Assembly: GCF_025736875.1 (NCBI RefSeq)
Contig: NZ_CP107052.1
Location: 1,940,501-2,004,500, forward strand
Direction: 5' to 3'
Origin: Candidatus Kirkpatrickella diaphorinae
GTDB lineage: Bacteria > Pseudomonadota > Alphaproteobacteria > Acetobacterales > Acetobacteraceae
DNA: 64,000 nt
Shown: positions 60,691 through 64,000 of the stretch, piece by piece
Numbering within the stretch: the first letter of the stretch is position 1
How the letters are laid out: each line of letters starts with the position of its first letter
Notes under the pieces: model-generated
Told to the model about the DNA's origin: nothing
The model's database searches: none
What the model saw: the letters and a program-made list of their open reading frames with translations, nothing else
Position numbers and translations under genes: made by a program

Positions 60691-61606
60691 TTTCTTCTCC
60701 CGCCTCAAACAGGGCCTTAACCGCTCCTCCCAGAAAATCAACGCGGCGCTGACACATCGGACGTTGGACGATGCTGCTTTAAACGCGCTTGAAGATGCGC
60801 TGATCGGCGCGGATCTCGGCCCCGCTGTCGCGGCGCGCGTGATACAGGATTTTCGTCGGACGCGCTTCGGTAAAGACGTTTCGACTGAGGAAATTCACCG
60901 CGTTCTGTCGCAGGAGATCGCGCGCGTGCTGGCACCCGTTGCCACGCCCTTCACGCCGGACGTGGCGCATAAGCCGCATGTCGTCCTCGTCGTCGGGGTG
61001 AATGGCGTGGGCAAGACGACCACAATCGGCAAAATGGCCCAATGGTTCGCGCAGAGAAACCTGACTTCCATGCTTGTGGCGGGCGATACATTCCGCGCCG
61101 CGGCGACGGAACAATTGGAGATCTGGGGGCAGCGTGTCGGGGCGCGGGTGATCTCCGGGAAGCAGGGCGGGGATGCGGCCGGCCTGGCTTTTGACGGGAT
61201 TCAGAAGGCGCGGGAAGATGGGTGTGACCTCGTTTTTATCGATACAGCGGGGCGCCTCCATAATAAAGGCGCGCTGATGGATGAGCTGACGAAAATCATC
61301 CGCGTCATGCGCAAAATCGATGAAACGGCACCGCATTCCGTCCTGCTCGTGCTGGATGCGACGACAGGTCAGAACGCGCTGGAGCAGGTGAGGGTCTTCA
61401 AGGAGCTTGTCAACGTGTCCGGCCTTGTCGTCACGAAGCTGGATGGCTCCGCTCGTGGGGGTGTCGTGATTGCGCTTGCTGAAAATTTCGGCCTGCCGGT
61501 GCATTTTGTCGGTGTGGGTGAGCAGGCTGATGACCTCCAACCTTTCTCAGCGCTGCAATTTGCGGAGGGTCTGGTCGCGGGTCAGATCAAAGATGACGCT
61601 GATTGA
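60683..61606 (+). CDS. ftsY: Signal recognition particle receptor FtsY
   Basis: Receptor for ribosome-SRP complexes at the inner membrane. About 307 residues from ATG 60683. The short N-domain (FSRLKQGLNRSSQKIN) lacks the long acidic A-domain of E. coli. The SRP GTPase motifs follow: GVNGVGKTTTIGK, the DTFRAAATEQL insertion box, DTAGRLHNKG, TKLDGSARGG and the late GVGEQADDL. It ends the dapF-mtaB-ftsY operon. Confidence 0.96.
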   Translation: MASFFSRLKQGLNRSSQKINAALTHRTLDDAALNALEDALIGADLGPAVAARVIQDFRRTRFGKDVSTEEIHRVLSQEIARVLAPVATPFTPDVAHKPHVVLVVGVNGVGKTTTIGKMAQWFAQRNLTSMLVAGDTFRAAATEQLEIWGQRVGARVISGKQGGDAAGLAFDGIQKAREDGCDLVFIDTAGRLHNKGALMDELTKIIRVMRKIDETAPHSVLLVLDATTGQNALEQVRVFKELVNVSGLVVTKLDGSARGGVVIALAENFGLPVHFVGVGEQADDLQPFSALQFAEGLVAGQIKDDAD

Positions 61607-61697
61607 TGCGCCGGGCTGAGCGGGCCAGGGTAACGATAAAAATCAGTTTTTATTGAGAAAATCCGGCAACAATTAAATAAAAAACTTGTTTGTTAAG

Positions 61698-61760
61698 AGC
61701 GAAGGCGCTAAGGGGCGGCTTCTTGGCACAAGCGGGGGCGATTTGCCCAACGCAGCCGTC
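61698..61760 (+). promoter_or_regulatory. Structured leader upstream of speD (candidate RNA element)
   Basis: Read as RNA, AGCG-AAGG-CGCT (61698-61709) is followed by a 7 bp stem GGCGGCT (61714-61720) / AGCCGTC (61754-61760, one G-U pair). That stem encloses two small hairpins, CTTG-GCA-CAAG (61722-61732) and GGGC-GATTT-GCCC (61736-61748). This is a three-way-junction shape ending 20 nt before the start codon. It could be a regulatory leader; GC-rich sequence also folds by chance. Confidence 0.4.
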
Positions 61761-61780
61761 TACTGGTTTGGGGGTACGTG

Positions 61781-62251
61781 ATGAACGCACTTGCTCAAAT
61801 GGGGATGGTATCGGACTTTCCGAGAGATAACCAAAAAGCGCTGACATCGACAGAATCTGGCATCGTCCAGAAAGATTATTTTATTGAAAGAGATGGTGAG
61901 CAATTTGCCGGGCACCATCTTCTCGTGGATTTTTGGGGTGCCAAAAATCTTGATGATCCGGAGCTCATAGAAAAATCTCTTCGCGATGCGGCAGAAGCCG
62001 CAGGCGCCACCATCCTGCACGGCCATTTTCACCATTTTACGCCGAATGGCGGGGTGTCGGGCGTGCTTGTCCTGGCTGAGAGTCATATCTCGATCCATAC
62101 ATGGCCGGAGCGAAGTTTTGCAGCGGTGGATGTGTTTATGTGCGGGGCCTGTGACCCGCTCAAGACGCTTCCCGTGATGCAATCCTGCTTTAAGGCGGAT
62201 CGGATCAATGACTCATTTTTGAGGCGGGGCCGCATTCAATCAGGCGTCTGA
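61781..62251 (+). CDS. speD: S-adenosylmethionine decarboxylase proenzyme
   Basis: Makes decarboxylated SAM for spermidine synthesis. About 156 residues, the bacterial class I form that self-cleaves. The cleavage motif LAESHISIHTWPE is present; Ser101 would become the pyruvoyl group. The start is ATG 61781, with GTG 61778 directly before it; the upstream GGGGG is a weak ribosome site. It precedes speE and ornithine decarboxylase in a polyamine operon, behind a foldable leader. Confidence 0.95.
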   Translation: MNALAQMGMVSDFPRDNQKALTSTESGIVQKDYFIERDGEQFAGHHLLVDFWGAKNLDDPELIEKSLRDAAEAAGATILHGHFHHFTPNGGVSGVLVLAESHISIHTWPERSFAAVDVFMCGACDPLKTLPVMQSCFKADRINDSFLRRGRIQSGV

Positions 62252-62344
62252 CTGCCTGAATTTCTTCACGTCTTTATTTTGAAATAAGCGCCGGTATGAC
62301 TGCCGGCGCGCATATCCTTGCGTCGCAAGGGTTAAGGGTAAGCC

Positions 62345-63211
62345 ATGACTGAAAACTGGATCCACGAGTCACTCTACCCCACATGGTGTCAGAGCTTTAA
62401 AATCGAGAAAATGCTCATCGAAAAGAAAAGCGCGTTTCAAGACATTAAATTGTTCGAGACGGCTTATCATGGGCGCGTCCTGCTGCTTGATGGTGTCGTG
62501 CAGGTCACGGAAAAAGACGAGTTTCCGTATCATGAAATGATCACCCACGTGCCGCTTCTGACCCATGGTGCGGCAAAGCGCGTGCTGATTATCGGCGCGG
62601 GAGACGGGGGCGTGCTGCGTCACGTCCTCATGCATCGCACTGTTGAAAAAGCGGTCATGGTTGAGATTGATGCGGACGTTATCGACCTCTCCAAACAATT
62701 TATGCCACAAATCGGGGGCGCGTCCTGGGACGATCCGCGCGCGGACGTCATTGTCGGCGACGGCATTGCCTATGTCGCCAAAGCTGAAGATGCGTCTTTC
62801 GACGTGATTATTGTGGATTCGACAGACCCGATCGGCGTCGGAGAGGTGCTTTTCACGGACGCATTTTATCAGGAATGTGCGCGCATTTTGTCGCCCCGCG
62901 GCATCATCGTCAATCAGTGCGGCGTGCCCTTTATGCAGAGTGAGGAGTTGGAGGTGACAAGCCGCCGCCGTCGGCAATTCTTCCCGCATGTCTCGGCCTA
63001 TGTTGTGTCCATGCCAACTTATGTCGGGGGCTTCATGGCGTTGGGTTTTGCCAGCAAGGACGCCCATCTGACTTTGCCTGCCACGTCGGAGATCGCCGCG
63101 CGCGCGCAGGCTGCCGGATTGAACGGTGATTCATTTTACTGGTCACCCGATGTGCAGCATGCCGCTTTCGCCCTGCCACCCTATATTGGTCGCTGCCTTC
63201 CCCAACGGTGA
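62345..63211 (+). CDS. speE: Spermidine synthase
   Basis: Aminopropyltransferase that joins decarboxylated SAM to putrescine. About 288 residues. Rossmann SAM-fold motifs GAGDGGVLRHVL and the acidic VDSTDPIG with the catalytic Asp are present, and the N-terminal beta strands carry ESLYPTW and LLLDGVVQVTEKDEFPYHEM. It lies 93 nt after speD. Together with the decarboxylase downstream it forms a full putrescine-to-spermidine route. Confidence 0.96.
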   Translation: MTENWIHESLYPTWCQSFKIEKMLIEKKSAFQDIKLFETAYHGRVLLLDGVVQVTEKDEFPYHEMITHVPLLTHGAAKRVLIIGAGDGGVLRHVLMHRTVEKAVMVEIDADVIDLSKQFMPQIGGASWDDPRADVIVGDGIAYVAKAEDASFDVIIVDSTDPIGVGEVLFTDAFYQECARILSPRGIIVNQCGVPFMQSEELEVTSRRRRQFFPHVSAYVVSMPTYVGGFMALGFASKDAHLTLPATSEIAARAQAAGLNGDSFYWSPDVQHAAFALPPYIGRCLPQR

Positions 63212-63329: not shown

Positions 63330-64000
63330 ATGACCCCCAAATTGAAAATGTTTTTCTCGGAAGGTGCCTTGCCAACACCTTATCTCGCCGTCGACCTCGA
63401 CCGTGTCGCCAAGCAATATCGGCGGATGGTTAAAGCGATGCCGTGGGCGAAAGTTTTTTACGCGGTCAAAGCCAACCCTGCCGCGCCAATCCTGAAAACA
63501 CTGGTGCGCGCCAAAGCGGGTTTTGACGCGGCCTCGATTGAGGAAGTGCGCCAATGCCTGGCGGCTGGATGTGCGCCATCGGATATTTCCTACGGTAACC
63601 CGATCAAAAAATCCGCATCTATCGCAGAGGCCGCGTCCCTCGGTGTTAGGCTGTTCGTTTGCGATAGTGAGGAGGAACTTCAGAAAATCGCGCAACATGC
63701 ACCGGGGGCGAAAATCTACACGCGTCTCGGGGTTGATAATGAGGGCGCGGATTGGCCCCTTTCACAGAAATTCGGGGCCTCTGCATCGACCTGTGCTTCT
63801 CTGTTGCGCAAAGCCTCGGATCTGGGACTCATCCCCTATGGCGTGTCGTTTCATGTTGGAAGTCAGCAGGGCTCCCCCGCTGCCTATATTGACGCGATCC
63901 ACCAGGCCGCGCGTATTTTTCAAGATGTCGCGGCGCATGGCATCAAACTGACCATGCTGAATATTGGCGGCGGTTTCCCCGTTCAATATCGCGCCCCGGT
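63330..64000 (+). CDS. Ornithine/lysine decarboxylase, fold III PLP (partial, runs off right edge)
   Basis: About 223 residues are visible from ATG 63330 (GAGGAGGG 6 nt upstream); the C-terminal barrel lies beyond the window. The PLP Lys is in FYAVKANP, HVGSQ is near residue 170 and NIGGGFP follows, the alanine-racemase-fold decarboxylase pattern. It resembles alphaproteobacterial ornithine decarboxylases, which make putrescine; lysine or diaminopimelate activity cannot be excluded. Its place after speD-speE supports ornithine. Confidence 0.88.
   Translation, partial: MTPKLKMFFSEGALPTPYLAVDLDRVAKQYRRMVKAMPWAKVFYAVKANPAAPILKTLVRAKAGFDAASIEEVRQCLAAGCAPSDISYGNPIKKSASIAEAASLGVRLFVCDSEEELQKIAQHAPGAKIYTRLGVDNEGADWPLSQKFGASASTCASLLRKASDLGLIPYGVSFHVGSQQGSPAAYIDAIHQAARIFQDVAAHGIKLTMLNIGGGFPVQYRAP

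Follow-up and report, generated by a model that had tools for sequence, protein, structure and literature searches.

Several structured RNAs bear comparison with the element described here. Riboswitches of the SAM-II and SAM-V classes are short alphaproteobacterial leaders that act on the Shine-Dalgarno (SD) sequence of genes linked to S-adenosylmethionine (SAM), and in the same bacterial class the speF RNA motif (Rfam) precedes ornithine decarboxylase genes. The autogenous elements of rpsO (S15) and of the alpha operon (S4) span the SD, the start codon and early codons. The functionally nearest known system, although differently built, is the spermidine riboswitch, which is described as a variant of SAM-I located before spermidine-pathway genes, including speD (PMC10853860). 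The abstract of that source calls earlier evidence for the function of polyamine-responsive RNAs unconvincing.

The present element lies at the start of speD in a stretch of 64,000 nt, hereafter the window (NZ_CP107052.1, positions 1,940,501-2,004,500, forward strand), from the single-contig, 2.18-Mb genome of Candidatus Kirkpatrickella diaphorinae (GCF_025736875.1). Like the spermidine riboswitch, it precedes speD, a spermidine-pathway gene; the riboswitch, however, closely follows the SAM-I aptamer, of which it is a variant (PMC10853860), whereas the speD element matches no Rfam model, SAM classes included, and runs into the coding sequence. It resembles the small translational SAM riboswitches in being a short alphaproteobacterial leader at a SAM-linked gene, the speF motif in being attached to a polyamine gene in the same class, and the rpsO and alpha operon elements in that its structure takes in the SD, the start codon and early codons. 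It differs from the last two in that its gene is unrelated and no binder is known for it, and from the speF motif in that no speF match was found in the window.

A search of the whole window with Rfam 15 gave no match at the gathering score, and positions 61560-61860 gave none at E<=10. At the speD starts of ten relatives, one of which (L250) is without the element, Rfam returned two matches, both below threshold, on the other strand and at a distance from the element. SAM-I and the other SAM classes had no Rfam match in the window, in 61560-61860 or at the ten relatives' loci. The element thus belongs to no Rfam family tested, in agreement with the initial annotation, which had assigned it to no known riboswitch class. 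No alphaproteobacterial speD RNA was found in Rfam or in the literature searched, mostly at the level of listings, and a term search in 10.1093/nar/gkae248 was without match.

Locus, promoter and leader hairpin

The features discussed below are all on the forward strand. Fold A and fold B denote two alternative predicted structures.

61686-61691, +: -35-like hexamer TTGTTT of the likely speD promoter, from the conserved position of its TTG
61709-61714, +: weak, putative -10-like hexamer TAAGGG, 17 nt after the -35, placed by spacing
61724-61758, +: leader hairpin, with P1 (UGGC 61724-61727 : GCCG 61755-61758) around P2 (GGGC 61736-61739 : GCCC 61745-61748), from comparison and a tree-based null
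61755-61768, +: leader switch strand GCCGUCUACUGGUU, which begins with the 3′ side of P1 and over its full length can pair with codons 6-10 (helix P6 of fold B)
61770-61774, +: SD GGGGG, from sequence, within the hairpin of predicted fold B
61781-61783, +: speD start codon ATG, conserved in relatives, where indels are in-frame only; apical loop in predicted fold B
61781-62251, +: speD, S-adenosylmethionine decarboxylase, with PF02675 from residue 46
61797-61809, +: P6 coding strand AAAUGGGGAUGGU, codons 6-10, competitor of P5, from frozen synonymous sites and covariation; mismatch A61799 in the window
61800-61833, +: coding stem-loop of fold A, with P5 (UGG 61800-61802 : CCA 61831-61833) and P4 (UCGG 61811-61814 : CCGA 61820-61823), from covariation and recoding
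62345-63211, +: speE, spermidine synthase, the next gene 3′ of speD on the same strand
63330-64000, +: ornithine/arginine-type PLP decarboxylase, after speE and cut by the window end

It is possible that speE is co-regulated with speD. Between the two genes lies a terminator-like hairpin (62240-62259), through which the expression of speE could gain some independence.

A protein search found SpeD in 102 of 147 genomes. Ninety loci chosen by protein alone share, within the family, the hairpin, the motif UCURCUGGUU, the SD, the AUG and the conserved coding start; among the matches listed, the same coding-start pattern occurs in Acetobacter, Gluconobacter, Komagataeibacter, Asaia, Saccharibacter and other Acetobacteraceae. 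At least 107 of the 189 leader sequences were picked by that pattern, after 12 of at least 119 pattern loci had been dropped as lacking a SpeD match (nine from unrelated bacteria or archaea, three from Acetobacteraceae). The counts leave out eight loci (L077, L078, L084-L089) that were truncated or came from beyond the family, and six badly placed leaders; L002, L063 and L090 were also left out of the synonymous-site count, and L090 out of the tree-null tests. One genome (G080, listed contamination 4%) carries two speD genes on different contigs (L025 and L063), both with the element.

Of the 81 protein-selected leaders, 70 have a TTG at a distance of 33-40 nt 5′ of the P1 motif, as against 5/81 and 3/81 at two control distances, so that transcription most likely begins at P1, with a start probably near 61720. 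A consensus promoter scan found no promoter at 61686-61714. This arrangement bears on the initial annotation, which had proposed a structured RNA leader of four stems within 61690-61781, ending before the start codon. The sequence does permit these stems (AGCG 61698-61701 with CGCT 61706-61709; GGCGGC 61714-61719 with GCCGTC 61755-61760; and a GGGC..GCCC hairpin), but comparison does not uphold the drawing as a whole. Its first stem, AGCG/CGCT, falls on the likely promoter to which the conserved TTG points, and is therefore likely to be promoter DNA; its outer junction stem, GGCGGC/GCCGTC, has all six pairs in 2/81 protein-selected leaders and five or more in 5/81. The inner GGGC..GCCC hairpin is retained as P2. 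The folding energy of 61690-61781 is also ordinary (MFE -31.3 vs -31.1 ± 3.1 in shuffles; z -0.06; 88 of 200 shuffles as good). What stands is the proposal of a structured RNA at speD, which is conserved and has pairs that covary; its confinement to the leader does not, since the element runs about 54 nt into the speD coding sequence. As judged by sequence comparison, the speD-start region is a real structured RNA that differs from the earlier drawing.

The consensus of P1 is UGRCC:GGYYR, and its five pairs are complete in 70/81 protein-selected leaders and, among the matches listed, which are partly pattern-picked, in 161/177; the window copy has four of the five. The sequence of P2 varies while its pairing is kept, as in GGGGAC:GUCC of L026 and GGGU:ACCC of L044. 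Against a tree-based null, P1 gives p=0.010 and P2 0/500. In alignment A3, from which 18 loci with an unusual 5′ part had been removed before thinning to 65 sequences (64 used), fold A has 95.5% paired cells compared with 93.2 ± 0.2 in shuffles, and 30 two-sided changes compared with 7.4 ± 2.1 (0/500 in both cases, kinship ignored).

A candidate pseudoknot in the leader, between AAC in the loop linker and GUU before the SD, would be the second helix of an H-type pseudoknot riboswitch such as SAM-II. It is paired in 368/452 cells, with p=0.16 against the tree null, which lends it no support, and a mismatch kept in one clade; in sequence the element is unlike the Rfam models. Pairing of leader CUGGU with coding ACCAG gives p=0.45 (tree null) and is kept as a possible pairing outside the model. 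An upstream reading frame in the leader was ruled out because the hairpin loops differ by single bases. All-against-all covariation in Acetobacteraceae yielded no pair at E<0.05, a result in which, we think, a deep clade split dominates.

The coding sequence as part of the element

The consensus of P5 is CUGG (codon 7) : CCAG (codons 17-18), and that of P4 is CUCGG:CCGAG; relative to consensus, the window copy carries one mismatch each in P1, P5, P4 and P6. Across 79 protein-selected genomes, synonymous variation is frozen to about codon 18 and relaxed beyond it. Gly8 is GGG in 79/79, a codon that accounts for 18% of Gly codons elsewhere in the gene, Leu7 is CTG in 77/77, and Ala3 is only GCA (60) or GCT (14). 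In the window, the 118 nt made up of the leader and about 18 codons fold more stably than their shuffled versions (z -2.08). When codons 7-19 are recoded at fixed protein, the native sequence folds better (z averages -2.39 and is below -1 in 94% of 78 genomes), as it does to a moderate degree for the leader with codons 1-11 (mean z -1.25; 58% of 78 below -1); the control, codons 46-58, gives a mean z of -0.44, with 36% of 78 genomes below -1.

Outside Acetobacteraceae, P5 is mostly UUGG:CCAA and P4 mostly CUUGG:CCAAG. The letters differ and yet still pair, and the coding hairpin therefore covaries across families. In alignment A4, for which 7 of 49 prepared sequences were left out, paired cells in P5/P4 amount to 88.3% vs 83.3 ± 0.6 in shuffles and two-sided cells to 32 vs 13.1 ± 4.2 (0/500 for each, kinship ignored); the 3′ ends of the P5 strand were set by eye, and the non-fitting L324 and L272 had been removed beforehand. 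With regular-expression anchors, P4 is paired in 118/130 cells (114/5000 permutations as good) and P5 in 78/88 (25/5000), kinship again being ignored. Within Acetobacteraceae, P5 (p=0.076) and P4 (p=0.58) fail the tree null, and in L068 both partners of one P5 pair are changed, with Leu7 and Gln18 both altered and the pair kept. Taken across the loci compared, the element is selected at the RNA level within the coding sequence, and its coding stem-loop covaries; that the speD start is a structured RNA under selection is highly probable.

In several loci outside Acetobacteraceae (L225, L220, L237, L277 and similar), an outer stem CUUCC:GGAAG, UUUCC:GGAAA in L277, seems by eye to extend the coding stem-loop, and its CUCUUCC strand appears able to pair with the SD in fold B.

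Two predicted competing folds

In fold A, the leader would form P1 and P2 and the coding sequence its own P5/P4 stem-loop. In fold B, codons 6-10 would instead be paired, as P6, with CUGGUU and the P1 3′ strand next to it. Since P6 is built from one strand of each fold A helix concerned, 3′ in P1 and 5′ in P5, fold B excludes fold A. The coding UGG is shared by P5 and P6, so that the predicted structure shows one structural mark of a translational riboswitch, namely mutually exclusive helices of which one would hide the SD.

Covariation analysis, which the initial annotation had recommended for Acetobacteraceae, yielded covarying pairs across families, weaker for fold B. P6 is paired in 87.8% of cells vs 84.9 ± 0.6 in shuffles, with a covariation score of 0.188 vs 0.152 ± 0.009 (0/500 for each, kinship ignored); it has 15 two-sided cells vs 7.2 ± 2.1, a count that some slid versions equal (5 to 17). 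The signal resides in one half of the helix. In the 31 loci outside Acetobacteraceae that were used (10 of 41 candidates having been left out), the CUGGUU half is paired in 173/186 cells vs 165.3 ± 1.5 (0/2000 permutations), and slid versions of it stay at, not above, the permutation level; the first half (GGYYRUC, columns 34-41) shows no excess in the same loci (193/248 vs 193.1). These permutations ignore kinship, and several of the loci are close relatives. At pair 47-78, for example, L221 and L232 have A-U, while L230 and L231 have G-C. For P6 in Acetobacteraceae alone, the tree null gives p=0.28 and 0.45, and covariation is no better than in shuffles. Of the leader-coding helix, it is the CUGGUU half that covaries among the aligned loci.

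Predicted energies place the two folds close together. Fold A minus fold B is -1.1 ± 3.0 kcal/mol in 171 Acetobacteraceae (112 within 3) and +1.5 ± 5.2 in 30 others (16 within 3), and in the window copy fold B is predicted to be favoured by 4.7 kcal/mol. The SD and AUG are predicted to lie between two local domains in fold A and inside one long hairpin in fold B.

Modelled in this way, the P1/P5/P6 arrangement is best read as that of a translational switch acting on a key step in the making of spermidine. With a rough probability of 0.57, the two competing folds control speD translation, the cis-acting element being made up of a short leader and some 18 codons that follow it. Fold A would leave the SD and AUG in a linker, so that ribosomes could start, whereas fold B would draw them into the hairpin, so that initiation would be blocked, and a signal reporting on the spermidine pathway would tip the balance. 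Interconversion of the folds in the cell, the choice of the on state and the nature of the signal are inferred. As the signal, a small molecule of the spermidine pathway bound by the RNA is favoured, tentatively; candidates would be SAM, decarboxylated SAM and a polyamine, SAM and polyamine having been suggested in the initial annotation. It is possible, if doubtful, that the element represents a new alphaproteobacterial riboswitch class for this pathway, with its switching platform inside the controlled gene and an N-terminal extension that exists to encode the switch. Placement of both competing strands in codons would explain the frozen synonymous codons as well as the N-terminal extension outside the conserved enzyme domain.

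Distribution and other modes of control

Polyamines are general stabilisers of RNA helices. Conceivably, then, control at speD could be constitutive or unspecific, with the structure setting a low translation rate or responding to temperature, or to helix stabilisation by polyamines and magnesium, through no specific site. The enclosure of the SD and AUG within a long, moderately stable predicted hairpin in fold B would suit such an arrangement. A plain inhibitory hairpin, however, would need neither two competing helices that both covary nor an invariant core of unpaired or weakly paired nucleotides (UCURCUGG, GGGGAU), and this form of control appears unlikely.

A first covariance model, R1, had matches at E<=0.05 in 27/385 class genomes; in L215-L244, a set of 30 that includes two weak own-genome matches, SpeD adjoins the match in 23 loci, and at E<=0.0021 in 21 of 22, the exception being L236. 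A second model, R2, matched 41/385 class genomes at E<1e-6, from 25 families, with 27 of the 41 in training alignment A4 and 14 outside training. Forty of these matches lie directly before a PF02675 gene on the same strand, and the remaining one is at a contig end. In the window genome there is a single strong match (E 4e-22; next best 0.78). In a phylum sample of 299 genomes, no match outside the class reached E<1e-6 (best 2.2e-4); six out-of-class matches inspected had no SpeD nearby, and 11 further ones reached E<=0.01. In the genomes searched, the element is thus tied to speD. PF02675 occurs in 156/385 class genomes, about 30 of them covered by the genome-wide searches only, which puts the element in about one in four of the 156.

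The start-spanning structure might instead be bound by a protein, either SpeD or some other regulator, in the manner of autogenous control by ribosomal proteins. Elements that take in the SD, the AUG and early codons are typical of such control (rpsO, alpha operon), and the element occurs at speD only; yet about three quarters of the class genomes bearing PF02675 have no match at E<1e-6, so that SpeD does not generally need it, and control of this kind seems rather improbable. That conservation serves the SpeD N-terminal peptide, through a nascent-chain or protein-level function, is very improbable: the peptide is similar across relatives (LGM[VD].[DE]), but synonymous sites are frozen, recoding weakens the fold, and from family to family both partners of a pair change, L068 altering Leu7 and Gln18 together with the pair kept.

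Convincing polyamine-responsive RNAs are rare in bacteria, and the speD-linked element, present in 25 families, offers a concrete sequence to test with SAM, decarboxylated SAM and spermidine. Competing strands placed in codons would also carry a warning that riboswitch searches restricted to intergenic DNA can miss half an element.

Plasmid records of Azospirillum thermophilum, Microvirga lotononidis and Ensifer held no convincing match (best E 0.08). On the A. thermophilum plasmid (L350, 1101-1160), a speD start has an element-like coding stretch, with the deposited start codon further downstream. Five other loci (L251, L307, L316, L318 and L088) have speD without the element and, near the start, a different conserved coding hairpin, GCGGAGGCGG..CGCCCGAGC, which in L318 contains GGUGC:GCACC; it is possibly a diverged form of the element.
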